A DNA stretch of 40,830 nt from a bacterium. Its GTDB lineage: Bacteria; Oederibacteriota; Muellerivitia; Muellerivitales; Muellerivitaceae. The notes below the pieces were generated by a model. That model saw only the letters and a program-made list of their open reading frames with translations. It was not told where the DNA came from and ran no database searches. The translations under genes were made by a program, and so were the position numbers. Positions 16,187-32,648 of the stretch are shown here, one piece after another (the stretch's first letter is position 1; every line of letters begins with the position of its first letter). The stretch lies in contig DASZRK010000050.1 of assembly GCA_035549195.1 (NCBI GenBank), positions 1 through 40,830 of the forward strand. Reading direction: 5' to 3'.

Positions 16187-16771
16187 TCAGTTGGCGAGAT
16201 AACGCTGGAGGGTCCGGGAACTGACCTTCATCACGTCGGCCAGACGGTTGCGTTCCACTCCCTGGCGGTTGAGGATCTGGGAGAGGAAGGCCCGGGAAAA
16301 ATCCCTGCGGGCCCGGAAAAGGGTGGTCCGGTGGCCGACCGCGTGATCCGCCAGGGTCTCGGCCAGGTAGGTGACGGTTTGATGGGCCGTCCCGTCCTTT
16401 TTTTCGCGGGCCATGGCCTCCAGGATCGTCCGGCGGAGATCGGGGACCTCCTGGGCCGCCCAAAGGACGTCCATCATCCCCCACTTCATGGCCGCCAGGA
16501 CCTGGGGCAATTGGGGGACCTGGAAGAGGGCCAGGCGCACGGCGTCGGGTTGCAGGGTATCGATGAGCTTTTCAAAGGCGGGAAGTTCGTTCTTCATCAG
16601 CCGCCAATCCAACAGCAGGAGCCGGAAAGGTTGGACCGTCAGGGTCTCCAGGGCCGACAAGACGTCGCCCGCTTCCCAGACCTTCCCCAGTTCGCAGGCC
16701 ACCGAGCGCAACCGTTCACGGAAAGCCCCGTGCTCCGCCATGATCAGGATGGGAAAGTTCCGGCGAGACAT
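16187..16771 (-). CDS. Receiver-like protein with Fis-type HTH
   Basis: 194 residues from the ATG at 16771 (an upstream TTG at 16792 is possible). Residues 1-118 have the receiver fold order (FPILIMAEHGAF, FRLLLLDWRLMK with Asp55), but the acidic pair is reduced to Glu13 and the conserved Lys is missing, so phosphorylation is doubtful. Residues about 155-194 (LSQILNRQGVERNRLADVMKVSSRTLQRYLA) form a Fis/NtrC-like helix-turn-helix. It is 64 bases after the small kinase gene and probably the last gene of the operon that starts at 24275. It likely binds DNA; whether the receiver part senses anything is open. Confidence 0.75.
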   Translation of the reverse strand: MSRRNFPILIMAEHGAFRERLRSVACELGKVWEAGDVLSALETLTVQPFRLLLLDWRLMKNELPAFEKLIDTLQPDAVRLALFQVPQLPQVLAAMKWGMMDVLWAAQEVPDLRRTILEAMAREKKDGTAHQTVTYLAETLADHAVGHRTTLFRARRDFSRAFLSQILNRQGVERNRLADVMKVSSRTLQRYLAN

Positions 16772-16835
16772 GGTCGTGAACGACCCCCTCAAGGAGATGG
16801 GAATAAAATACCAAAAAAATGGCTACAAAGGGGCC

Positions 16836-17549
16836 TTACTTTCGGCCCTTTCCTTTGGGTTTCCGGCCCACACCCAGGGGAAGCCGGGCCCGGAAGGATG
16901 TCCCCGCGGCGGAGGATTCGACCCGCAGGTCCCCCCCGTGGTTCCGCACCACCCAGCGGCAAATGGCCAGTCCCATGCCCGTCCCATCCCGCTTGGTCGA
17001 GAAATAGGGCTTGAAGATCTCCTCCCAAAGTTCCCGGGGAATGGACGGCCCGTCGTTCCAGACCTGGAACTCCAGGGACCGTCCCTCCCGCCGGTTCGAG
17101 ATCCGGACCGTCCCGCCCCGGCCCGCCGACTCCAGGGCATTGCGCACCAGGTTGAGGGCCAGGCTCTCCAACTGACATTCCCGCCCCTTGATCCTGAGCG
17201 CCGGGAGGGGGCCCGTCTCGAGCTTCGTTCCTTTTTCCTGGAAGACCGGGGCCATCAGCCCCAGGACCCGCTCCATCAGGCATCCCCAATCCACCGGGAC
17301 CTTCGGTTCCAGTTCGGGACGGGTGCGATCCATGAAGCACCGGACCAATTCCAGCAATCGGTCCGTTTCCCGGGTCAGGAGCTTCTCGAAACTTCCCAGG
17401 AAGACCGGATCGTCCTTCTTGCGGGGGAACATCTGGGCCGAAACGCTCAAGGCCGTCAAATGATTGCGGATCTCATGCAGTCGGGCGGCGTCCTGGAAGG
17501 CCAGGGCCTCCGGGGAGGGCCTTTTCTGGGCCCGGGCCTTGGGCCTCAC
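16836..17549 (-). CDS. Small soluble histidine kinase
   Basis: 237 residues from a GTG that overlaps the NtrC-like gene's stop (GTGA). There is no sensor domain or membrane helix: the HisKA helix begins almost at once, with His25 in RLHEIRNHLTAL. The HATPase motifs are complete: N-box NLVRNALES, NDGPSIP and GTGMGLAICRW. This is the NtrB-type kinase core and is the natural partner for the NtrC-like regulator encoded directly before it. With no input domain of its own, control must come from protein partners such as the kinases encoded upstream in the operon. Confidence 0.85.
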   Translation of the reverse strand: MRPKARAQKRPSPEALAFQDAARLHEIRNHLTALSVSAQMFPRKKDDPVFLGSFEKLLTRETDRLLELVRCFMDRTRPELEPKVPVDWGCLMERVLGLMAPVFQEKGTKLETGPLPALRIKGRECQLESLALNLVRNALESAGRGGTVRISNRREGRSLEFQVWNDGPSIPRELWEEIFKPYFSTKRDGTGMGLAICRWVVRNHGGDLRVESSAAGTSFRARLPLGVGRKPKGKGRK

Positions 17550-18877
17550 GGTTGCCGGAAACCGGCGCGGGATTCACGGCGGGTCCGCACGATCCTCTGG
17601 TAGTCCGCTTCCAGTTTCAGTTCCTTGAGCTTGAGGATCAGGGTATTGCGGTGGAGCCCCAGGGTCTTGGCCGCCTGGGTCTGGTTCCCCCGGGTGCGCT
17701 CCAGGACCCGCCGGATATATTTGCGCTCGAACTGGCGGCTCACCTTCTTGAGGATGTGCCGGACCGGTCCCTTGGCCGGGTCCAGTTCCGCCTGCCTAAG
17801 CAGCATGTCCAAAGGCACGTCCTCCAGGGTCAAGGTCCCGTCGGCCGCGAAACGGACCATGGTCTCCAGGCATCCTTCCAGTTCCGTCAGGTTCCCGGGC
17901 CAGGGATAACGGGCCAGGAAATCCAGCACATCCTTCCCGGCCTCCCGGACCTTGGAACCGGACCGTTCCAGGTAACGCTGCACCATGGCGGGGACCTCGG
18001 CCGCCCTTTTCCGTAAAGGGGCCAGGGTCACCGGATCGCCGAAAAGGGCGCCGAACTCCTCGATGATCCCCCCATTTTCCGTGCGGGCCTTCGGTCCTTG
18101 GGGCCCCGAGGCGATCAGCCGGACGTCGGGCCGGCCCAGGGCCTGCGGGGACAGGGCCCGGGCCAGGCGGGTCTGCAGTTCTTCGGGCAGCTTGTCCGCG
18201 TCCACCAGGAACAAGGACCCGCCCTGGGCGAACTCCACCTTGCCGACCTGGGACGCCTTCCCCTTCTTCTCGACCCCGAACAGTTCCCTCTCCAGGGCCC
18301 CTTCCCCGATCGAACCGCATTCCAAACGGACGAAAGGCCCCCTGGCCCCGGGACCGGATCGATGGACCTCCCGGGCCGCTTCCTCGATCCCCGTCCCGGG
18401 CTCACCGACGATCCAGACCGCCTTGCCGGACCGGGCCGTCCCGGACAGGTCGGCGCCCAGGCCGCCCCTCCACTCCGCCCGCAGGAGACCCTCGGTCTGT
18501 GCGTCCCCCGTCCCCTTGCGCCGTGCCAGCACCTGGGGGATCAGTTCCAACAGGTCGTCCACCCGGAAAGGCTTGGTGATGTAATCCCGCGCCTTGCCCT
18601 TCATGGCCGTCCGGGCCGTTTCGACGCCCTGGAGCGCCGTCACCATGATGACCTCGATGTCCGGGTCCCGCCGTTTGACCTGTTCGAGCAGGTCCAACCC
18701 GGACCCGTCGGGGAGCATGATGTCCAAAAGACAGAGGTCGAAACCGCTGCGTTTCAGTTCCTTCAAGGCGGAACGGGCGTCGGCGGCGAAGGTCAGGGCA
18801 TATTGGTCCTGGAGGGCCATCCGGAAGGATTCCCGGACCCCCTCCTCATCGTCCACGATCAATAGGTGTGCGCGCAT
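17546..18877 (-). CDS. NtrC-type response regulator with degenerate AAA+ domain
   Basis: 443 residues. Receiver 1-118 is intact (Asp9/Asp10, acceptor Asp52, Lys102). The AAA+ region (about 140-335) keeps the bEBP layout (PFVRLECGSI, ELFGVEKKG, LAPLRKRAAEVPAMVQRYL, YPWPGNLTELEG) but lacks its working parts. The Walker A Lys is Ile164 (GEPGTGIEE), and the Walker B Asp-Glu is Val-Asp (SLFLVDAD). The GAFTGA sigma54-contact loop is absent, and the sensor II Arg of the usual GNVREL is Thr. The Fis-like HTH at about 385-425 (GNQTQAAKTLGLHRNTLILKLKEL) is well conserved. It should bind DNA under receiver control, yet not hydrolyse ATP or open sigma54 promoters. GAGGGCATC precedes the ATG, 7 bases after the upstream stop. 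Confidence 0.88.
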   Translation of the reverse strand: MRAHLLIVDDEEGVRESFRMALQDQYALTFAADARSALKELKRSGFDLCLLDIMLPDGSGLDLLEQVKRRDPDIEVIMVTALQGVETARTAMKGKARDYITKPFRVDDLLELIPQVLARRKGTGDAQTEGLLRAEWRGGLGADLSGTARSGKAVWIVGEPGTGIEEAAREVHRSGPGARGPFVRLECGSIGEGALERELFGVEKKGKASQVGKVEFAQGGSLFLVDADKLPEELQTRLARALSPQALGRPDVRLIASGPQGPKARTENGGIIEEFGALFGDPVTLAPLRKRAAEVPAMVQRYLERSGSKVREAGKDVLDFLARYPWPGNLTELEGCLETMVRFAADGTLTLEDVPLDMLLRQAELDPAKGPVRHILKKVSRQFERKYIRRVLERTRGNQTQAAKTLGLHRNTLILKLKELKLEADYQRIVRTRRESRAGFRQP

Positions 18878-18884
18878 GATGCCC

Positions 18885-20147
18885 TCAATTCCCCGCCAGG
18901 AGCTTTTCCCAGAGCGATTCGTTGACCAGGATCTTGGCCATCAGGTCCCTTTCCTCGTTCAAGGCGGCCGCGGTCGGCGGGGCGACCGGGAAGGCCAGGC
19001 CGAAGTGGGTCCCGCCCTCCGCCCGGTTCTTAACGGTGATCCGCCCGCCGTGGTGGTAGACGATGAAGAAACAGGACATCAGGTAGATGCCGAACTCCTG
19101 GGGGCTGCCGCTGCGGGTGAAGAAGGGGTCGAACAGGGACCGCAGCCCGTCCTCCGGGATCCCGGGTCCGTTGTCCTCCAGTTCCACCAGGACCTCGGCG
19201 GGCCCTTCCTTGGGGCCGACCACCGAGGCCTTGATCTTGACCTTGGACCCCGCGGGGAGCGACACCGCCTCGTCCTTGAGGAGCATCTCGAAGAGGCGCT
19301 GGAACTTCGCCTTGTCCACGGTCAACTCCGGGAGCCCCCCGGGGACTTGGTTCTCCACCTGCACCTTCCGGGCCGTCAGGTCCCCCTGGGCGGCCTGGAG
19401 GGCGTCCGCCAGCACCTGGTCCAGGCGGACCTTGTCGTTGTAGCTGGGCAGGGGCCGGTTGGAGGTCTCCCACAGGTCCCCCAGGAGGGAGACGACCTTG
19501 TCCATCTGGCCCTGGACCTTCTGGTAGTAATCCTTCCAGAAATCCGGATTGCGCAGGCGGTTCAGGTCGATCTGTTCCTCCTCCATGCGCTTGGGGGTCA
19601 GGTCCAGGAAGGTCTTCACCGCCACCATGGAATTACGGATATGGTGCCCCAGGCCCGCCGCCAGCACCCCCAGGCTCAGGATGCGGTCGGTCATCATGAT
19701 GGAATGAAGGGCGGAGATCTTCTCGCGCATCAGCTGGTCCCTTTCGGACTGGACCATGAAGAACTCCAGGCCGCGCCGCAAGGTCACTTCCAGTTGGGGG
19801 ATGTCCCAGGGCTTGGTCACGTACTTGTAGATGGCGCCCGTATTGACCGCGTCGATGGCGGTCTCCAGGTCCGAATAGGCCGTGACCAGCACCCGCATGA
19901 TGCGGGGATTGGATTGGCGGGCCTTTTCCAGCAGTTGGACCCCCTTCTCGCCGGGCATGCGCTGGTCGGTCATGAAGAGGCCGATCGAATCCAGGTTCTC
20001 GTTCAGGAGCTTGAGGCCCTCCTGGGGGCTGGGGGCCGTGAGGATCGTGAACTTCTCCCCGAAGATCTCCCGGAAATACTTGAGGGATTTCTCCTCGTCG
20101 TCCACGTAGAGGATCTTGTATTTCTTGTAGTCGTAGAAATTCTCCAT
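18885..20147 (-). CDS. Receiver-histidine-kinase-like protein (PhcR-like), probable pseudokinase
   Basis: 420 residues. Receiver 10-130: Asp16/Asp17, acceptor Asp61 in MTDQRMPG, Lys112 in TKPW, all intact. Residues 150-240 form a HisKA-like helix pair with GLGHHIRNSM; the acidic residue normally after the phospho-His is His169. The ATPase-like part (about 265-390) keeps DNGPGIP and DPFF. Its N-box Asn is lost (RLFEMLLKDEAVS), and the usual GxGLGL lid is replaced by FGIYL. It probably does not autophosphorylate. The arrangement receiver plus C-terminal kinase-like domain is that of PhcR in Ralstonia. It follows the PhcS-like kinase by 23 bases, with AAGGAG before the ATG. Its receiver is the likely acceptor for that kinase. 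Confidence 0.8.
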   Translation of the reverse strand: MENFYDYKKYKILYVDDEEKSLKYFREIFGEKFTILTAPSPQEGLKLLNENLDSIGLFMTDQRMPGEKGVQLLEKARQSNPRIMRVLVTAYSDLETAIDAVNTGAIYKYVTKPWDIPQLEVTLRRGLEFFMVQSERDQLMREKISALHSIMMTDRILSLGVLAAGLGHHIRNSMVAVKTFLDLTPKRMEEEQIDLNRLRNPDFWKDYYQKVQGQMDKVVSLLGDLWETSNRPLPSYNDKVRLDQVLADALQAAQGDLTARKVQVENQVPGGLPELTVDKAKFQRLFEMLLKDEAVSLPAGSKVKIKASVVGPKEGPAEVLVELEDNGPGIPEDGLRSLFDPFFTRSGSPQEFGIYLMSCFFIVYHHGGRITVKNRAEGGTHFGLAFPVAPPTAAALNEERDLMAKILVNESLWEKLLAGN

Positions 20148-20170
20148 ACCCGCTCCTTAAGTTGCCCCTC

Positions 20171-22867
20171 TCAAGATGGCTGCCGGCCGGCGAGGTCCCG
20201 GGAGGCCTCCTCGGCCCCCTTCGTGGATGGCGCCTGCGCCGGCAGGTCCAGCGTGAACTCGGTGAACTTGCCTTCTTCGCTCGCGGCCGATATTTCGCCG
20301 CCCATGTCCTTCACGATCCGGTAGCAGATGCTCAAGCCCAGCCCCATGCCCTGGCCCACGTCCTTGGTGGTGAAGAAGGGGTCGAAGATCTTGTCCAGGT
20401 GCCGGGGGGCGATGCCCGTCCCGTTGTCCCGGACCCGGATCAGGACCCGCCCGTTCTTTTCCTCGACCGTGATGGCCAGCGTCGGCTTCTCGTCCCCGTG
20501 GTCCTTGGCCTTCATCGCGTCCAGCGCATTTTGGAACAGATTCACAAAGACATGGGTTAAATTGTTCTTCTCCGCGAAAACTTGTTGATTTTTTGGCACT
20601 GTCAGGACGATCCGGGCGTTCTTTTCGGTCTCGTGGCCGAGGAACCGCAGGGCCGTGGCCAGCGCCTCCTCCAGGTCGACGGGCCCCAGGGCGCGGCCGT
20701 GGGGATGGGTGAAATCCCTTAGGTCGCTGACGATGCGCTGGACCCGGGTCATCCCCTCCTGCATGTCGGCCATCAGGTCGTCCAGCTTGGCCCTCTCCCC
20801 CTCGGGCCACTTGGCCCGCAGGCCCTTGAGCACGTTCAGGGCCGAGAGGGCGTAGTTGAGCGGGTTGTTGATCTCGTGGATCATGCCCGCGCTCATGCGC
20901 CCCAGGGAGGACATCTTCTCGCTCTGCACCAGCGAGGACTCGGTCTCCTTCAACTGCTCCAGGGCGGACTCCAGCCGCAGGTTCTGGCGCGAGAGCTCGG
21001 ATTGGGTCCGGTGGGAGGCGATCAGGTTCTTCACCCGCACGTGCAGTTCAGTGGTGGAGAAGGGCTTGGTGAGGAAATCGCTGGCGCCGGCCTGCAGGGC
21101 CGCCAGCTTGGTCTTCTCCTCCGCCCAGGCCGTCAGCAGCAGCACCGGGATGGTACGGGTCGCCGGTTCGGCCTTGATCTCCCGGCAGGCCTCGATGCCG
21201 TCCTTCTCGGGCATCATCATGTCCAGCACCACCACCTCGGGCAGGTATTGGCGGGTCTTCTCCACCGCCTCCGTCCCGTTCACCGCCTCCAGGATCTCGT
21301 AATCCCGTCCCAACTGGGACTTGACGAAGCGCAGCATGTCCGGCTCGTCGTCGGCCAGCACCAACCGGGGACGCTTGGAGGACCCCCCCTCCCAGCCCTG
21401 GGGTTTCTCGGCGGCCTCGGTCATGGCCGGGAAAAGCTCGGCCCGGCGATAGAGCTTGGCGAGCCATTGGTCCGACCCGCTCCCCGGGACGCCCGCCCCC
21501 TCGCCTTCCGAGGGCTCAGCCGGGGCCTCGGTCGTCCGCTCCAGGGGCACCCGCACCGTCATCACGGTCCCCTTCCCCACTTGGCTTTCCACCGACACCT
21601 TGCCGCCCTGGGCCTCGGTCAATTCGCGCACCAGGGCCAGGCCGATCCCCGTCCCCTGGTACTTGCGCTGGGCCGTGGCGTCGGCCTGCCAGAAGCGGTC
21701 GAAGATGAAGGGCAGGTCCTTTTCCGAGATGCCCACACCCGTGTCCCGGACCCGGATCACCAGTTCGCCTTCCTCCTCCGTGGCCTCCACGGCCACTTCC
21801 CCGCCGGCGGAGGTGAACTTGACCGAATTGAAGAGGAGGTTGAGGACGATCTTCTCCATCTTGTCGCGGTCCAGGAGGGCCACGCCCAGGCCGTCGGGCA
21901 CCGAGGCGGAGAGCCGGACCTTGCGGCCCCGGGCGGCGGGCTGGACCGACTGGGCCAGGCCCCGGATCATCTCGGGGATGGACACCGGCTCCCGTTTGAC
22001 CTCGACCCGGCCCGATTCCAGCTTCACCAGGTCCAGCAGGTCGTTGATGAGCTTGAGGAGCCGCATCCCGTTGGTGCGCATCAGGCGCAGGGTCTCCGTC
22101 ACCTGGGGGTCGGGCGGCACCTGGCGTTGCAGTTCCTCCAGGGGCGCCAGCATGAGGGTCAGGGGCGTCCGGAGCTCATGGCTGATATTGGCGAAGAACT
22201 GGCTCTTCATGCGGTCCATCTCCACCAGCTTCTCGTTGGTCTCCTTGAGCATGCGGCTGCTGCGGTCCACCTCGAAGCGCAGGGCGAACTCCCGCAGGCG
22301 CAGCTTCCCCTGGGACCAGCTGGAGGCCCCCACGATGATCTGGGTGAGGATGATGAAATAGAGGTTGTTGAACAGCACCCCGAAGCTGGGCATGGGCTCG
22401 GGGTGGAGCAGGCAGGCCAGCACGTACATGGCCATGATGACCATGCCTTCCCAGAGGTTCTCCTGGTAGGTCCAGGGGCAGACCATGCCGATGGCCAGGA
22501 TGACCAGGTTGAGGCCCGCGTAATAGGTGGAGGAGACGCCGTTGGTCTCCCAGATCATCAGCGAGATGAAGAAACAGGGCAAAAGGGGCAGGATGAACCC
22601 CAGGGCCCGGTAGTACTTGAGCCCGAAGGAGGTCTGCACCATCACCCAGAGGACCGCCACGATGGCCGAGCAGACCAGCCGCATCTTGAGGAAGGCCCAG
22701 AGGTGGTCCGGATAGACGAAATAGTCCAGGGTGAAGCCCGCCGGCATGAGGGTGAAGATCAGCCAGCAGAAGAGCTTGATGGTGTCGATGCGCACCCGGC
22801 GGTCGTAGACCTTGTAGTTCTCGAGGATCTCCGGGTCGAGCGTGAGGTCGGTGGAGGTCTCAGCCAT
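20171..22867 (-). CDS. Membrane hybrid histidine kinase with two kinase cores (PhcS/CqsS-like)
   Basis: 898 residues. About six membrane helices lie between residues 27 and 180 with no periplasmic sensor domain, as in the CqsS/LqsS/PhcS family, whose ligands are lipophilic signals. Kinase core 1 has His230 in NISHELRTPL, N-box NLLFNSVKF, DTGVGIS and GTGIGLAL. A receiver at about 500-618 has Asp549 and Lys601. Kinase core 2 has His664 in GMIHEINNPLNY, N-box NLFQNALDA, DNGTGIAP and GMGLGLSICY. All look intact. It starts inside the 3' end of the methyltransferase gene (8-base overlap, GGAGG upstream), which ties sensor and putative signal synthase together. Ligand identity is inferred from context only. 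Confidence 0.85.
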   Translation of the reverse strand: MAETSTDLTLDPEILENYKVYDRRVRIDTIKLFCWLIFTLMPAGFTLDYFVYPDHLWAFLKMRLVCSAIVAVLWVMVQTSFGLKYYRALGFILPLLPCFFISLMIWETNGVSSTYYAGLNLVILAIGMVCPWTYQENLWEGMVIMAMYVLACLLHPEPMPSFGVLFNNLYFIILTQIIVGASSWSQGKLRLREFALRFEVDRSSRMLKETNEKLVEMDRMKSQFFANISHELRTPLTLMLAPLEELQRQVPPDPQVTETLRLMRTNGMRLLKLINDLLDLVKLESGRVEVKREPVSIPEMIRGLAQSVQPAARGRKVRLSASVPDGLGVALLDRDKMEKIVLNLLFNSVKFTSAGGEVAVEATEEEGELVIRVRDTGVGISEKDLPFIFDRFWQADATAQRKYQGTGIGLALVRELTEAQGGKVSVESQVGKGTVMTVRVPLERTTEAPAEPSEGEGAGVPGSGSDQWLAKLYRRAELFPAMTEAAEKPQGWEGGSSKRPRLVLADDEPDMLRFVKSQLGRDYEILEAVNGTEAVEKTRQYLPEVVVLDMMMPEKDGIEACREIKAEPATRTIPVLLLTAWAEEKTKLAALQAGASDFLTKPFSTTELHVRVKNLIASHRTQSELSRQNLRLESALEQLKETESSLVQSEKMSSLGRMSAGMIHEINNPLNYALSALNVLKGLRAKWPEGERAKLDDLMADMQEGMTRVQRIVSDLRDFTHPHGRALGPVDLEEALATALRFLGHETEKNARIVLTVPKNQQVFAEKNNLTHVFVNLFQNALDAMKAKDHGDEKPTLAITVEEKNGRVLIRVRDNGTGIAPRHLDKIFDPFFTTKDVGQGMGLGLSICYRIVKDMGGEISAASEEGKFTEFTLDLPAQAPSTKGAEEASRDLAGRQPS

Positions 22868-24275
22868 TCTCGGGCCTCCTGACCTCGATGAAGATGTTCA
22901 CGCCGGTGGAGTCGGCCTTGACCTGGTGGTCGACCGCCTTCTCCGGGGCCAGGGCGCCCAGTTGGGCCGCGTTGCGGTAGACCAGGTGCCATTCCATGAA
23001 ATATTCCATCTGCTGCCGGGCCGGGTTGGAGGAATCCACGTTGGTGGCCACCAGCAGGCCGCCGGGCGCAAGCATCTCGTAGAACTGGTTCATGAGGCGC
23101 TTGCAGATCTTGTCGGAGAAATAATCGAAGAGCCCGGCGCAATAGATCATGTCGAAGTTGCTCCCCATGGTCCTTTCCTCGGGCCTCATGGTCTCCTTGA
23201 GGATCTGGTTCACCGACTTCTTCACCAGGTTCACCGGGGTGCGGCGGTTGAAGCGGGACCGTACGCTCTCGATGCTCTGCTGGGTGGCCGAAAGGGTCTC
23301 GTCGTTGAAGTCCAGCAGGGTCAGGTTCGCCCTTTCGCACACGTCGTCCTGGGTGAGGAAGTTCAGCACCTCCTGGGCGGGCCCGCAGCCCAGGTTGAAG
23401 ATGCGGGTGCTCCGGCCCAGGGCCGCCCCCCGCCGGGTCTCCTCCCGCAGGCGCTCGGTGAGGTACTTGATGCGGTTGCGGTGGGCCTCCGCCGGGGCGA
23501 TGTTCCAGAAATAGAAGTTGATCATCTTGGCGAAAAGGGAGGTCCCCTCCAGGGGGTCCCGCAGGATCATGCGCACCATCTCATAGTCCCCGGCGTAGCC
23601 CAGGGGCTTCTGGAAGGTGCGGTAGAGGAAGGGCGCGCAGAGGATGAGCGGGTGGATCTGGCGGCGGCCATAGGCCCGGTGGGTGGGTTGCAGGTCCTCG
23701 GGGATGGTGTTGGCGATGGCCTCGAAGCGCTCGCCCAGCTCGGCCACCCGCATGAAGAAGGGCTCCTTCAACCGCTCGACCACCTCCCGCTCCCGCTGCA
23801 GGCGGTCCCCCGTGGGCTCGGAGCGGATGCCGAACTCCACCTGTTCCAGCCAATGGCGCAGGTCCACCAGGAGGGTCTGCATGTCGGCGATGGCCACCTT
23901 GAAGTCCGGCGTGACGACCTGGACCTTCTCCCATTCCTTGAGGAACTTGCCGAACTCGCTCTCCAGGCTCTCGGCCTTCTGCACGGGCGAGAAGAGATCC
24001 ACGTCCAGCCAGGCGTCCTCCAGGCTGGCCTCGCAGACCAGGAAGATGCCGGTGTTGACCAGGTTGGAGACCACCGCCCGTCCCGAATAAACGGGCTTCT
24101 CGTTCATGAAGATGCGGAACTCGGTGAGGACCTCGGACAACTGCAGGATGCTGTAGGGGTTGTAGACCTCGAAGACCACCAGGTAACGGGTGAGGCGCAA
24201 GGAGGTGGCACGGATCTCGGTGCCTTGGCTGTTGCGGCATACGATGAAGGTGTCTTTCCCGAACACGACCGCCAT
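22860..24275 (-). CDS. SAM-dependent methyltransferase, PhcB-like (putative quorum-signal synthase)
   Basis: 471 residues from the ATG at 24275 with GGAG six bases upstream; an in-frame ATG at 24338 is poorly placed. Residues 1-100 form a beta-rich domain resembling a PilZ-like barrel without the canonical c-di-GMP motifs. A helical region (100-285) includes KPLGYAGDYEMVRMIL. A Rossmann methyltransferase domain follows: motif I IFNLGCGPAQE (294-302), acidic Asp322 in LTLLDFND, FDMIYCAGLFDYFSD near 375, and MLAPGGLLVATNV. Ralstonia PhcB, about 51 kDa, makes the 3-hydroxy fatty-acid methyl-ester signal. Size, a following 6-TM kinase and then a receiver-kinase protein all match phcBSR order. Substrate assignment is inference; another carboxyl or small-molecule methyltransferase role is possible. 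Confidence 0.72.
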   Translation of the reverse strand: MAVVFGKDTFIVCRNSQGTEIRATSLRLTRYLVVFEVYNPYSILQLSEVLTEFRIFMNEKPVYSGRAVVSNLVNTGIFLVCEASLEDAWLDVDLFSPVQKAESLESEFGKFLKEWEKVQVVTPDFKVAIADMQTLLVDLRHWLEQVEFGIRSEPTGDRLQREREVVERLKEPFFMRVAELGERFEAIANTIPEDLQPTHRAYGRRQIHPLILCAPFLYRTFQKPLGYAGDYEMVRMILRDPLEGTSLFAKMINFYFWNIAPAEAHRNRIKYLTERLREETRRGAALGRSTRIFNLGCGPAQEVLNFLTQDDVCERANLTLLDFNDETLSATQQSIESVRSRFNRRTPVNLVKKSVNQILKETMRPEERTMGSNFDMIYCAGLFDYFSDKICKRLMNQFYEMLAPGGLLVATNVDSSNPARQQMEYFMEWHLVYRNAAQLGALAPEKAVDHQVKADSTGVNIFIEVRRPENG

Positions 24276-24836: not shown

Positions 24837-25295
24837 TCAATTCACCTGCAAAGTCCCCTGCATCCCGGTGCAGGCGCTGGTGCAGGAGCCGTTCCCGCAA
24901 CTGGAGTGGTTCCCGCAATGGAACTTGAAGGTCCCCGTGTTGTTGAAGGTCACCGTCACGGGGAAGCTGGTGTTCCCGCTGACCATGCAGGAGGAAGCGG
25001 CGCCGTCGTCGATGTTCAAGGGATGGATGCCGGCGTTGGAACTGTCCCAGACCACCGATTGTCCCTGGGCGATCGTCAGGGGAGCGCTCAAGGGGGTCGC
25101 ACCGATGGCATATTGGTAGGAACCGCTATTGACCACCGAAAGGGTATAGGCCACGGGCCCGGGCGTGGTTCCCGGCGTCGGGGTCATGCCCCCACCCCCA
25201 CCACCGCCGTAGGGACCGGTCCCCGTCGAACCGCTACAGGACCATCCGGCCACCAGGGCCAGGAACAACATCACGACCAAGGACGCTTTCTTCAT
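24837..25295 (-). CDS. Cupredoxin-like exported (lipo)protein
   Basis: 152 residues from the ATG at 25295. The N-terminus is a signal sequence ending near WSC20, a weak lipobox, followed by a Gly/Thr/Pro linker (21-48). The rest is a cupredoxin-type sandwich with a type 1 copper ligand set in the usual order: His91 in GIHPLNID, Cys127 and His130 in FHCGNH, and Met145. Between His130 and Met145 there is an unusual Cys-rich loop (SSCGNGSCTSAC) longer than in plastocyanin or azurin; Cys103 is extra as well. Blue copper proteins carry single electrons in the periplasm. The gene lies 169 bases after the bd-like/cytochrome c gene, so it may take electrons from that complex. It is followed by a strong terminator. 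Confidence 0.75.
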   Translation of the reverse strand: MKKASLVVMLFLALVAGWSCSGSTGTGPYGGGGGGGMTPTPGTTPGPVAYTLSVVNSGSYQYAIGATPLSAPLTIAQGQSVVWDSSNAGIHPLNIDDGAASSCMVSGNTSFPVTVTFNNTGTFKFHCGNHSSCGNGSCTSACTGMQGTLQVN

Positions 25296-29990: not shown

Positions 29991-32648
29991 TTAGGGATAG
30001 ATATAGGACTGCGCTTCGTCGTCCGGGTTCAAGGGGTTATAGAAGCCCGATGGCGCCTTCTCGAATCCGCCTTCCAGCCACAAGGCCCCATTGAAGTAAT
30101 AAGGGACCGAACTGAACCGGGGCGGATTGGTGGCGAAGTCGGTCACTTGGTTCCAGTTCAGGCCGTCCTTGGTGAACCAGGTGTCGTTGTAGACCTTGGT
30201 TCCGTCGGTCCCGCCCGTGATCCAGATCTCGGGCGCTCCGTTCTGCACCACGAAAGCCATGGCATTGAACCGGGGTTTGAAGGCGGGGTCCAGTGCCGGC
30301 GTGATCTGCTTCCAGGTGGCCCCGTCGGTCGAATCCCACACGTCGTTGTAGAGCGTGCCGCCCGAGGGTTCCACACCCGCGATGAGGAAGATGGCCGGAG
30401 AGCCGCTTCCCGGGTCCTTGAAGGTGACCGCCGAGGCGCCGCCCCGGGCCGGGAACCCGTTGGGCGTCTCCTCGTTCCAGGTGGTGCCCGTGGTCGAGGA
30501 CCAGACGTCCGCCAGGCCCTCGGGCTTGGCGTCGATCCCGCCGATGACCCACATACGTTTCCCCTTCGCGTCGGGATCGAAGACCACACTGGAGTGCAAG
30601 AAGCGCACTGGGAAAGTTCCTCCCGTATCGACTCGGCTCCAGGCCTTGCCGTCGGTCGCCGACCAGATGTCGTTCACCAACCCCGTGGAGGTCTTGCCCG
30701 CGAAGATCCAGGCCCGGTCGGTTCCCGTATCCCCGCCCAGCAGGAAGTTCAGGCTGGTATGACCGTAACGGGCCGAGAAGTTCCCCGTACCCAGGAAGGC
30801 CCAGGCCTTCCCGTCCTGGCTGCTGTAGATGGAGTTGGACAACCCCGTCCCGCCATCCCATCCACCGATGAGGAGCATCTGCTTGGGCGTCGTGAAGATC
30901 ACGCCCGACGCGTCACCGATCTTGCCGAAGGCGTTGGCCGCCGAGGCCAGGCTGAAAAGAGGCGTCGGGGTCGGCGTCCAGGTCGGGGTCCAGGTCCGGG
31001 TAGGTGTCTGGGTGACCGTTGGCGAAGGTGTAGCCGTTGCGGTATTCGAGACCGTCGAAGTGGCGCTATTCGTCGCTGTCGAGGTGGTGGTATTTGTGGC
31101 CGTCGGCGTAGGCGTAGACGAAGCGGTAAGTGTAGCCGTCGATGTCGGGCTATTCGTGGCCGTCGAGGTGGTGGTATTCGTCGCTGTGGCTGTTGCCGTC
31201 GAGGTGGCGGTATTCGTGGCCGTGGAAGAAGCCGTATTCGTGGCTGTCGGCGTAGGCGTGGACGTAGCGGTGAGTGTAGCCGTCGATGTCGGGCTATTCG
31301 TGGCCGTCGAGGTGGTGGTATTCGTCGCTGTGGCCGTTGCCGTCGAAGTGGCGGTACTTGAGGCCGTTGAAGAAGCCGTGTTCGTCGCTGTGGCCGTTGC
31401 AGTATCCGTCGCCGACGAGGTGGTGGTATTTGTCGCGGTGGAAGTCGCCGTGTTCACGGCCGTATCCGTGGGGGTCGCGGTCCCCGTTCTCGAAGGCGTC
31501 GAAGAAGCCGTGTTCGTCGCCGTGGCCGTTGCTGTATCCGTCGCCGACGAGGTGGTGGTATTCGTCGCGGTGGAAGTCGCCGTATTCACGGCTGTCGGCG
31601 TAGGCGTGGCCGTAGCGGTGAGCGTAGGCGATGACGTAGGAGTCGCCGTAGTCGAAGCCGTCGCCGTGTTCGAAGGCGTCGAGGAAGCCGTGTTCGTCGG
31701 GGTGGCAGGGACCGTATCGGTCGCCGTCGGGGTAACCGTGAAGGTCGGGCTATCCGTGGGGCTGGAGGTGGGGGTGGCCGTCACGCCGCAAAGTCCGCCC
31801 AGGTCCACCGCCGTGCGGTCATAGGCGTAATAAGGAAGGCTCGAGTTCACCCGGAAACGGAAGGAAGGCCCTTGGGACGGGAAGGTCCCCGGATCGGTCA
31901 CCTGGAGCCAGGCATGGGCGCCCGATCGGGTGGCCAATTGAACGCAATAGATGTCCCCCAGGGTAAGGGGCGCGGAGGAGACCGAGAATGCCGAAGCGGC
32001 GGGAACATGGTCGAAGTCCACCAGGTCGCCGTTCCCCAGATAGGCGACCCGGGGTGAGGCGCCGCCGGGCGAAGCGTCCTGGAGGTGGAACCCGCCGGAA
32101 GAGGCCAAGGCGATGTCGAACCCCGTAGCGGTCGTGACCCCCAAAGCCAGGTTCCCGTCCCAGAAGCCGTAGCTATAGCCCGTTCCCAAGGCCGCGCCGT
32201 CCACCCGGGAACAGGTACGGATCAAGGACCCCAGGTCGATGACCGGGGCGGTCGACAGATGGGCCAGGTCGATCTGCGCGGCGCCCAGGGCGAGGGGTTG
32301 GTGGGTGGCGGCGTCATTGAGCTGGAGGCTCAATAAAAAAGAAGTCCGCCCCTGGAGGGTGACGGCGAAGCTCTTGGTCCCGCCGGAACCGGCGGTGGAG
32401 AAGGGCCCGAAGGTCCCCTTCACGGGTGCCCGGAGGGGGTCATCCAGGCGGTAATAGATCTCGTTGGCGGCGGCGCCCAGCAGGTTCCCCGAGACCCCGT
32501 CCTTGACGGAGGAGGAAACGGTCAAGATGGTCGGTTGGTTGGGGGCGACGGGACCGCCCGAGTTGCTCGAACAGCCCGCCAGGAGGACGAGGGCGCAGGC
32601 GCCAAGGAAAAGGGATCGGGCGATTCGGTTTGGACCGGTCAAGGGCAT
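29991..32648 (-). CDS. Lipoprotein with Thr-rich repeat stalk and kelch-type beta-propeller
   Basis: 885 residues from the ATG at 32648; an upstream in-frame ATG at 32732 gives no better signal sequence. Residues 1-25 are a lipoprotein signal with lipobox LLAGC. Residues 30-285 form a beta-rich domain with no family I recognise (VDGAALGTGYSYGFWDGNLA, FRVNSSLPYYAYDRTAVDLG). Residues about 288-560 are a low-complexity stalk of alternating Thr (TATNT, TSTATNS, TPTPT), encoded by internal DNA repeats. Residues about 565-885 hold kelch-like blades with recurrent GG and W residues: GGWDG...SNSIYSSQDGKAWAFLG, ARYGHTSL, VNDIWSATDGKAWSRV, ITGGTDGTKVYNDTWFTKDG. It is probably displayed on the cell surface. 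Ligand or enzymatic activity is unknown; a galactose-oxidase-like propeller is possible, but its Cu ligands are not evident. Confidence 0.8.
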   Translation of the reverse strand: MPLTGPNRIARSLFLGACALVLLAGCSSNSGGPVAPNQPTILTVSSSVKDGVSGNLLGAAANEIYYRLDDPLRAPVKGTFGPFSTAGSGGTKSFAVTLQGRTSFLLSLQLNDAATHQPLALGAAQIDLAHLSTAPVIDLGSLIRTCSRVDGAALGTGYSYGFWDGNLALGVTTATGFDIALASSGGFHLQDASPGGASPRVAYLGNGDLVDFDHVPAASAFSVSSAPLTLGDIYCVQLATRSGAHAWLQVTDPGTFPSQGPSFRFRVNSSLPYYAYDRTAVDLGGLCGVTATPTSSPTDSPTFTVTPTATDTVPATPTNTASSTPSNTATASTTATPTSSPTLTATATPTPTAVNTATSTATNTTTSSATDTATATATNTASSTPSRTGTATPTDTAVNTATSTATNTTTSSATDTATATATNTASSTASSTATSTATATATNTTTSTATNSPTSTATLTATSTPTPTATNTASSTATNTATSTATATATNTTTSTATNSPTSTATLTASSTPTPTATNTTTSTATNSATSTVSNTATATPSPTVTQTPTRTWTPTWTPTPTPLFSLASAANAFGKIGDASGVIFTTPKQMLLIGGWDGGTGLSNSIYSSQDGKAWAFLGTGNFSARYGHTSLNFLLGGDTGTDRAWIFAGKTSTGLVNDIWSATDGKAWSRVDTGGTFPVRFLHSSVVFDPDAKGKRMWVIGGIDAKPEGLADVWSSTTGTTWNEETPNGFPARGGASAVTFKDPGSGSPAIFLIAGVEPSGGTLYNDVWDSTDGATWKQITPALDPAFKPRFNAMAFVVQNGAPEIWITGGTDGTKVYNDTWFTKDGLNWNQVTDFATNPPRFSSVPYYFNGALWLEGGFEKAPSGFYNPLNPDDEAQSYIYP
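30970..31785 (-). repeat. Coding tandem repeats of the Thr-rich stalk
   Basis: An 816-base low-complexity block inside the lipoprotein gene, built on six-base codon pairs ending in a Thr codon. Higher-order duplications are visible. A segment starting at 31131 recurs nearly unchanged at 31275 (144 bases, 48 codons). A second starting at 31381 recurs at 31513 (132 bases, 44 codons). All periods are multiples of three, so the frame is kept. Confidence 0.8.

Follow-up and report, generated by a model that had tools for sequence, protein, structure and literature searches.

The first three genes of a six-gene operon in the window, which encode a methyltransferase (MT), a hybrid kinase with a six-transmembrane (6-TM) sensor and a protein joining a receiver to a degenerate kinase, probably form a Phc-type cell-to-cell signalling circuit, with a tail extension in the lineage of the window. 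A Phc-type synthase-receptor architecture is here placed in a region of the tree that is new for it; its kinase is modified, its tail is specific to the lineage, and sister genomes hold an acyl supply of their own. The window, the whole stretch of DNA that was analysed (40,830 nucleotides), is an entire 40.8-kb contig from a 3.2-Mb genome that is 98% complete. The bacterium is uncultured, and the nearest relatives of its genome are labelled candidate division (candidate phylum) FCPU426.

The six open reading frames lie on the minus strand at 16187‒24338, with the spacing described in the first-pass annotation. The MT and hybrid kinase genes share 8 bases (22860‒22867), followed in gene order by gaps of 23 and 7 bases, an overlap of 4 bases and a final gap whose size depends on the start codon of the last gene: 64 bases from the ATG near 16771, or 43 bases from the TTG at 16792. 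In a promoter and terminator scan, signals were no commoner than expected by chance. Next to the operon, at 24837‒29845 on the minus strand, cupredoxin-like, Rieske and cytochrome b proteins were recognized by eye together with other large membrane proteins, one of which has a C-terminal haem-c motif; by eye, this cluster is a respiratory chain. An intergenic 84-bp direct repeat with inverted arms (28491‒28728, 94% identical) recurs as pieces of 31‒48 bp at about 15 other sites in the genome and represents a dispersed palindromic repeat family. A 913-residue lipoprotein-like reading frame at 29991‒32732 combines Kelch-like repeats with a long repetitive stretch rich in Thr, Ser and Pro.

The first gene (22860..24275, minus strand) encodes a SAM methyltransferase of 471 residues, a PhcB-like putative signal synthase assigned from Pfam MT families, an AF2 model and orthologs. 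The frame is readable from 24338 (492 residues), and a GGAG precedes the internal ATG at 24275, the position at which the MTs of relatives begin. The protein consists of an N-terminal β-barrel (approximately residues 9‒85), a helical linker and a C-terminal class I MT domain with GCGPA as motif I, and the barrel is six-stranded in the AF2 model (pLDDT 88). Orthologs with 54‒63% identity were present in all eight same-family or same-order genomes searched; beyond the order of the window, the search of the phylum gave no good match. The layout of the barrel in the AF2 model is reminiscent of PilZ, and the PilZ profile is matched by three distant MT relatives (E 2e-7 to 5e-10). In the window MT, PilZ gave no Pfam match and the hhalign profile comparison was negative, so that its PilZ homology remains a structural hint only.

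The SAM domain weakly matches CheR (PF01739, E 7e-7). This match, together with the strict pairing of MT and kinase, could indicate that the MT is a CheR-like enzyme methylating the adjacent kinase protein for adaptation, with no diffusible signal and with a sensor that reads a cue in the membrane or outside the cell. However, we consider this improbable, since the Pfam domain scan found no MCP-type methylation domain in the hybrid kinase, the PDB folds closest to the MT model are small-molecule methyltransferases and not rRNA methyltransferases, a fatty-acid cassette adjoins the MT in sister genomes, and the gene order is that of phcBSRQ, whose MT makes the signal (PMC8578825).

The second gene (20171..22867, minus strand) encodes a hybrid sensor kinase of 898 residues, a putative signal receptor with a PhcS-like sensor, as judged from a domain scan, a sensor HMM and an AF2 model. 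Its Pfam domains are HisKA/HATPase, a receiver and a second HisKA/HATPase. Six hydrophobic segments are located at the N-terminus, where the 6-TM sensor occupies residues 1‒205 (AF2 pLDDT 95) and carries the conserved motif SxYYAGLN and the invariant residues G44, D48, R63, M104, S113, Y115, Y116, A117, G118, Y148, and F171, of which D48, R63, Y115 and Y116 are candidate pocket residues. Searched with the sensor, NCBIfam returned no meaningful match and Pfam only a weak one to MASE8 (E 0.057). The best match in the PDB, ImcA (E 2e-3, TM 0.67), is too weak to assign a function to the sensor.

The third gene (18885..20147, minus strand) encodes a protein of 420 residues with the PhcR architecture, a receiver followed by a degenerate histidine kinase (receiver and HATPase in Pfam) with no DNA-binding domain. 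The residues D16, D17, D61 and R155 are at least 95% conserved, and Arg155 is invariant in 59 of 59 third proteins. The phospho-His of the kinase half is retained in 32 of the 59, and the Asn of the ATP N-box is lost. Judged from these residues, the third protein has an intact receiver and a decaying kinase half.

A scan with one genome per species yielded at least 555 MT relatives, and the neighbourhoods of the best 80 were surveyed. Nearly all of these 80 are Verrucomicrobiota or FCPU426; a few are labelled Acidobacteriota, Omnitrophota or Binatota and may be mis-binned. The hybrid kinase directly follows the MT at 75 of the 76 loci with enough DNA, the sole exception being G003, where a 1.7-kb insertion separates the two genes. 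The receiver-kinase protein is in third place at every one of the 61 loci that extend far enough. The overlap between the MT and kinase genes in relatives is mostly 8 or 4 bases, usually ranging from 4 to 8 or slightly more. The FCPU426 sequences cluster as a single group in the MT tree (SH-aLRT 91), amid Verrucomicrobiota lineages. After the third gene, 45 of the 61 loci lack any homolog of the six window proteins. The conserved system is the first three genes alone; of the six-gene order proposed earlier, this part is upheld, and the six genes as a unit are not, the tail being lineage-specific. The presence of two kinase cores in one protein, put forward as part of a relay apparently unmatched in described systems, is instead the norm, seen in over 60 relatives. 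The insertion in G003 (L128:12751-14368) contains two similar small lipoprotein-like reading frames on opposite strands.

Two-component clusters are common, and the last three genes of the operon resemble a generic NtrBC-type set. The operon might be an ordinary cluster of two-component genes that by coincidence includes a housekeeping methyltransferase. This explanation is very improbable, as it is contradicted by the neighbourhood survey, with its uniform order over two phyla, and by a sensor that occurs once per FCPU426 genome and adjoins the MT. Since the first three genes keep their order across phyla, a chance grouping is ruled out.

The pairing of sensor and MT was surveyed in 384 genomes sampled across many phyla, a wider set that apparently holds one or two genomes per phylum. 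The sensor profile matched 22 of the 384, nine from the FCPU426 order and 13 others. In all nine FCPU426 genomes, the single sensor copy adjoins the MT. Distant MT relatives occur in 15 genomes outside FCPU426; the adjacent gene carries the same 6-TM domain in six (G065, G187, G212, G259, G311 and G324), and the MTs of the other nine are without the sensor. The sensor is joined to a histidine kinase-receiver in G324 and, judging from similarity, in G187, to a PAS-kinase in G065 and G212, and to a class III cyclase in G311 and G259. At L125:7266-10151 and L144:5926-8738, a distant MT is directly followed by a gene that fuses the 6-TM sensor with a nucleotide cyclase of class III, and such fusions are putatively the same receptor with a cyclase output. 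A different type of membrane kinase (HisKA_7TM) adjoins the distant MT in G303 and G381. Seven further sensor-bearing genomes have no recognized MT of this family adjoining the sensor, which leads us to reject the idea that the sensor is always paired with the MT; among these seven, G079 has a PilZ-methyltransferase protein next to the sensor, and in G219 about 33 kb separates the sensor gene from the distant MT. Since the pairing holds in nine of nine FCPU426 genomes versus six of 15 distant MTs, with seven sensors unpaired, we judge it tight among near relatives and incomplete at greater distance. Two loci were noted in passing. At L176:4006-9869, a protein of 1074 residues with PilZ and methyltransferase regions, missed by the MT profile, is encoded directly upstream of a 6-TM-sensor hybrid kinase. 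In G101, a fragment at a contig end (L178:7260-7676), which to the eye resembles the C-terminal end of a class I methyltransferase, lies upstream of a sensor-domain kinase.

In the sister genomes G002, G003, G005 and G006, a cassette resembling a type II fatty-acid synthase is located directly upstream of the MT and codirectional with it (at the loci, listed in a different order, L133:58-3592, L131:2273-7382, L128:6297-10926 and L126:3-3602; all four genomes belong to the FCPU426 family). It comprises a β-ketoacyl synthase (KS) that has the Cys, a shorter Cys-less partner resembling a KS, an ACP, a FabZ-like dehydratase, a FabG-like reductase and a PPTase, supplemented by a thioesterase in G003 and a second SDR in G002. 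G003 gave no KR match, and the PPTases of G005 and G006 were matched only as homologs of the G002 protein. Since the cassette lies directly upstream of the MT in four sisters, an acyl product is likely, and the gene content points to a putative acyl substrate for the MT. Weak similarity of the cassette to the cispentacin AmcE/F/G models makes cyclic acids possible, and a linear 3-hydroxy acid is not proven. The cassette is absent beside the window operon and from the rest of the window genome, whose best KS reaches 37%; without the cassette, the acyl chains would come from primary fatty-acid synthesis.

The combination of a KS, a Cys-less KS-like partner and a PPTase or thioesterase resembles specialized biosynthesis, and the cispentacin similarity agrees with this. 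The MT and the cassette could accordingly make a secondary metabolite or a membrane lipid whose presence the kinase senses in its own membrane, which would be self-regulation of a pathway and not communication. We regard this as unlikely, since MT and sensor stay paired where the cassette is missing: in the window, in G001, G004 and G008, and at every Verrucomicrobiota locus examined. At the Verrucomicrobiota loci, the search for the cassette gave no more than a scattering of short-chain dehydrogenases and a single dehydratase-like match.

The tail begins with an NtrC-like regulator of 443 residues (17546..18877, minus strand), in which Pfam recognizes an intact receiver, a sigma-54 AAA domain and a Fis HTH. 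The first-pass annotation called this regulator degenerate, and its motifs agree: GEPGTGIEE replaces the Walker A motif (GxxGxGK) and has no Lys, GGSLFLVDAD at Walker B has no DE, and GVEKKGKASQVGK stands in place of GAFTGA. The sole NtrC-like ortholog found (L016, 48%) shows similar losses. Lacking the Walker A Lys, Walker B and GAFTGA, the protein cannot be a normal sigma-54 activator. Since rpoN (sigma-54) is present in the window genome, the motif loss is specific to this protein, which is most likely a phosphorylation-switched DNA-binding protein working without sigma-54 remodelling. The next gene (16836..17549, minus strand) encodes a small soluble NtrB-like histidine kinase of 237 residues with intact His and ATP boxes, assigned by Pfam to the HATPase kinases and without a sensor domain. 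The last gene (16187..16792, minus strand) encodes a receiver-like protein with a C-terminal Fis-like HTH (201 residues, or 194 from the ATG near 16771). It matches no family above the cut-off, giving weak receiver (E 0.011) and weak HTH signals, and its orthologs in L016 and L126 (41‒42%) share a conserved Asp and the C-terminal HTH. Among the best 80 relatives surveyed, the complete three-gene tail occurs only in the window and G004; G006 has the small kinase and the 201-residue protein and lacks the NtrC-like gene. The NtrC-like/NtrB-like/Fis-like tail is a lineage-specific add-on.

For the Phc-type circuit, we infer substrate, product, ligand, phosphate flow and quorum function as follows. 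The MT would make a diffusible methylated acyl signal from acyl chains, most likely the methyl ester of a hydroxy or related fatty acid. The co-translated hybrid kinase would sense this signal in the membrane through its 6-TM domain and autophosphorylate, and the phosphate may then pass to its own receiver and on to that of the third protein; in the latter, the kinase half, now in decay, may serve as a protein-binding output. In the window lineage, the relay would be extended by the NtrC-like protein, the NtrB-like kinase and the small receiver/HTH protein; since the NtrC-like protein can no longer drive sigma-54, it is presumably a phosphorylation-controlled DNA-binding factor. We give equal weight to both sides on whether the Ralstonia Phc system is one offshoot of an old cross-phylum module, composed of an MT synthase (often with a PilZ or PilZ-like N-terminus) and a dedicated 6-TM receptor, with outputs swapped among histidine kinases, hybrid kinases, PAS kinases and class III cyclases, and with a private type II fatty-acid synthase supplying the acyl chain of the signal in some FCPU426.

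If the circuit operates as proposed, signalling of the fatty-acid methyl-ester type would be widespread in Verrucomicrobiota, an abundant phylum of soil and water, and in a phylum without cultured members. The spread of the three-gene set through Verrucomicrobiota, and its place beside fatty-acid genes in some close relatives, hint at cell-to-cell signalling far wider in range than published. The synthase-sensor pairing would serve as a mark by which signals and their matching receptors could be located in genomes, the adjoining fatty-acid cassette would predict the chemistry of the signal, and cultured carriers (Pelagicoccus, L047 and L054, the latter P. mobilis) make the circuit directly testable.

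In Ralstonia, the phc genes are ordered phcB (MT), phcS (kinase), phcR (receiver and kinase domain, no DNA-binding domain) and phcQ (receiver) (PMC8578825). Paraburkholderia carry phcBSRQ (PMC3639386), and a survey of Proteobacteria found the cluster restricted within Betaproteobacteria (PMC10653808); our literature search found no paper tying phc to Verrucomicrobia. We compared the window with Phc through a plasmid operon of Paraburkholderia graminis, and homology to PhcB is therefore indirect. This operon, which ranks first among plasmid hits for the window MT and is the closest Burkholderiaceae match, has the phcBSRQ layout (MT, 6-TM kinase, receiver, receiver) in a record not annotated as phc; nothing was found in the viral contigs searched. 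Its identity to the window is 38‒39%, with 39% over 457 residues for the MT and 37% over 204 residues between the third window protein and the second P. graminis receiver (PgRR2). The sensor profile, built from FCPU426 and Verrucomicrobiota only, matches the N-terminus of the P. graminis kinase (PgHK) with an E-value of 3e-40, and the phospho-His of this kinase is at 233, versus H230 in published PhcS (PMC11960443). Experimental evolution selected PhcB R22 and PhcQ R154 (PMC6989110). As positional matches only, 71 of 81 MT family members and the P. graminis MT have Arg at the position of R22, and PhcQ R154 is one residue off the invariant Arg155 of the third protein.

The proposal of a PhcBSR-like core in B-S-R order beyond Proteobacteria stands, the sensor being homologous to that of a kinase from an operon of phcBSRQ layout. 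The MT is first, the membrane kinase second and the receiver(-kinase) protein third, and the latter, like PhcR, combines a receiver with a histidine-kinase region, here degenerate. A receiver-only PhcQ is absent from fourth place, which is taken by the NtrC-like gene. Since a separate PhcQ is missing and the Phc link runs via P. graminis, we do not class the operon as full phcBSRQ. The suggestion that the tail replaces the PhcA branch is weak, because Burkholderia phytofirmans has phcBSRQ without phcA (PMC3639386); phcA lies outside the operon.

The tail resembles NtrC/NtrB systems in its receiver, AAA and Fis HTH domains and its soluble NtrB-like kinase, but differs in the loss of the Walker A Lys, Walker B and GAFTGA in both known copies and in a kinase without a sensor domain. 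The core shares with the CqsS/LqsS-type autoinducer kinases what we take to be their arrangement, a 6-TM sensor and kinase adjoining the synthase gene. CqsA and LqsA are PLP enzymes, a class other than methyltransferases. With Phc of Ralstonia, Cupriavidus and Paraburkholderia, the core shares the order of synthase MT, membrane kinase and receiver-kinase protein, the receiver protein without a DNA-binding domain and, as seen in P. graminis, the long N-terminal region of the MT with Arg at residue 22 and the homologous 6-TM sensor. In contrast to Phc, the window has a hybrid kinase that unites a receiver and two kinase cores, whereas PgHK has one core; the third protein has a kinase half, unlike PgRR2; a separate PhcQ is absent; extra NtrC/NtrB/Fis-like genes are present; sister genomes add a fatty-acid cassette; and the hosts are FCPU426 and Verrucomicrobiota instead of Betaproteobacteria.
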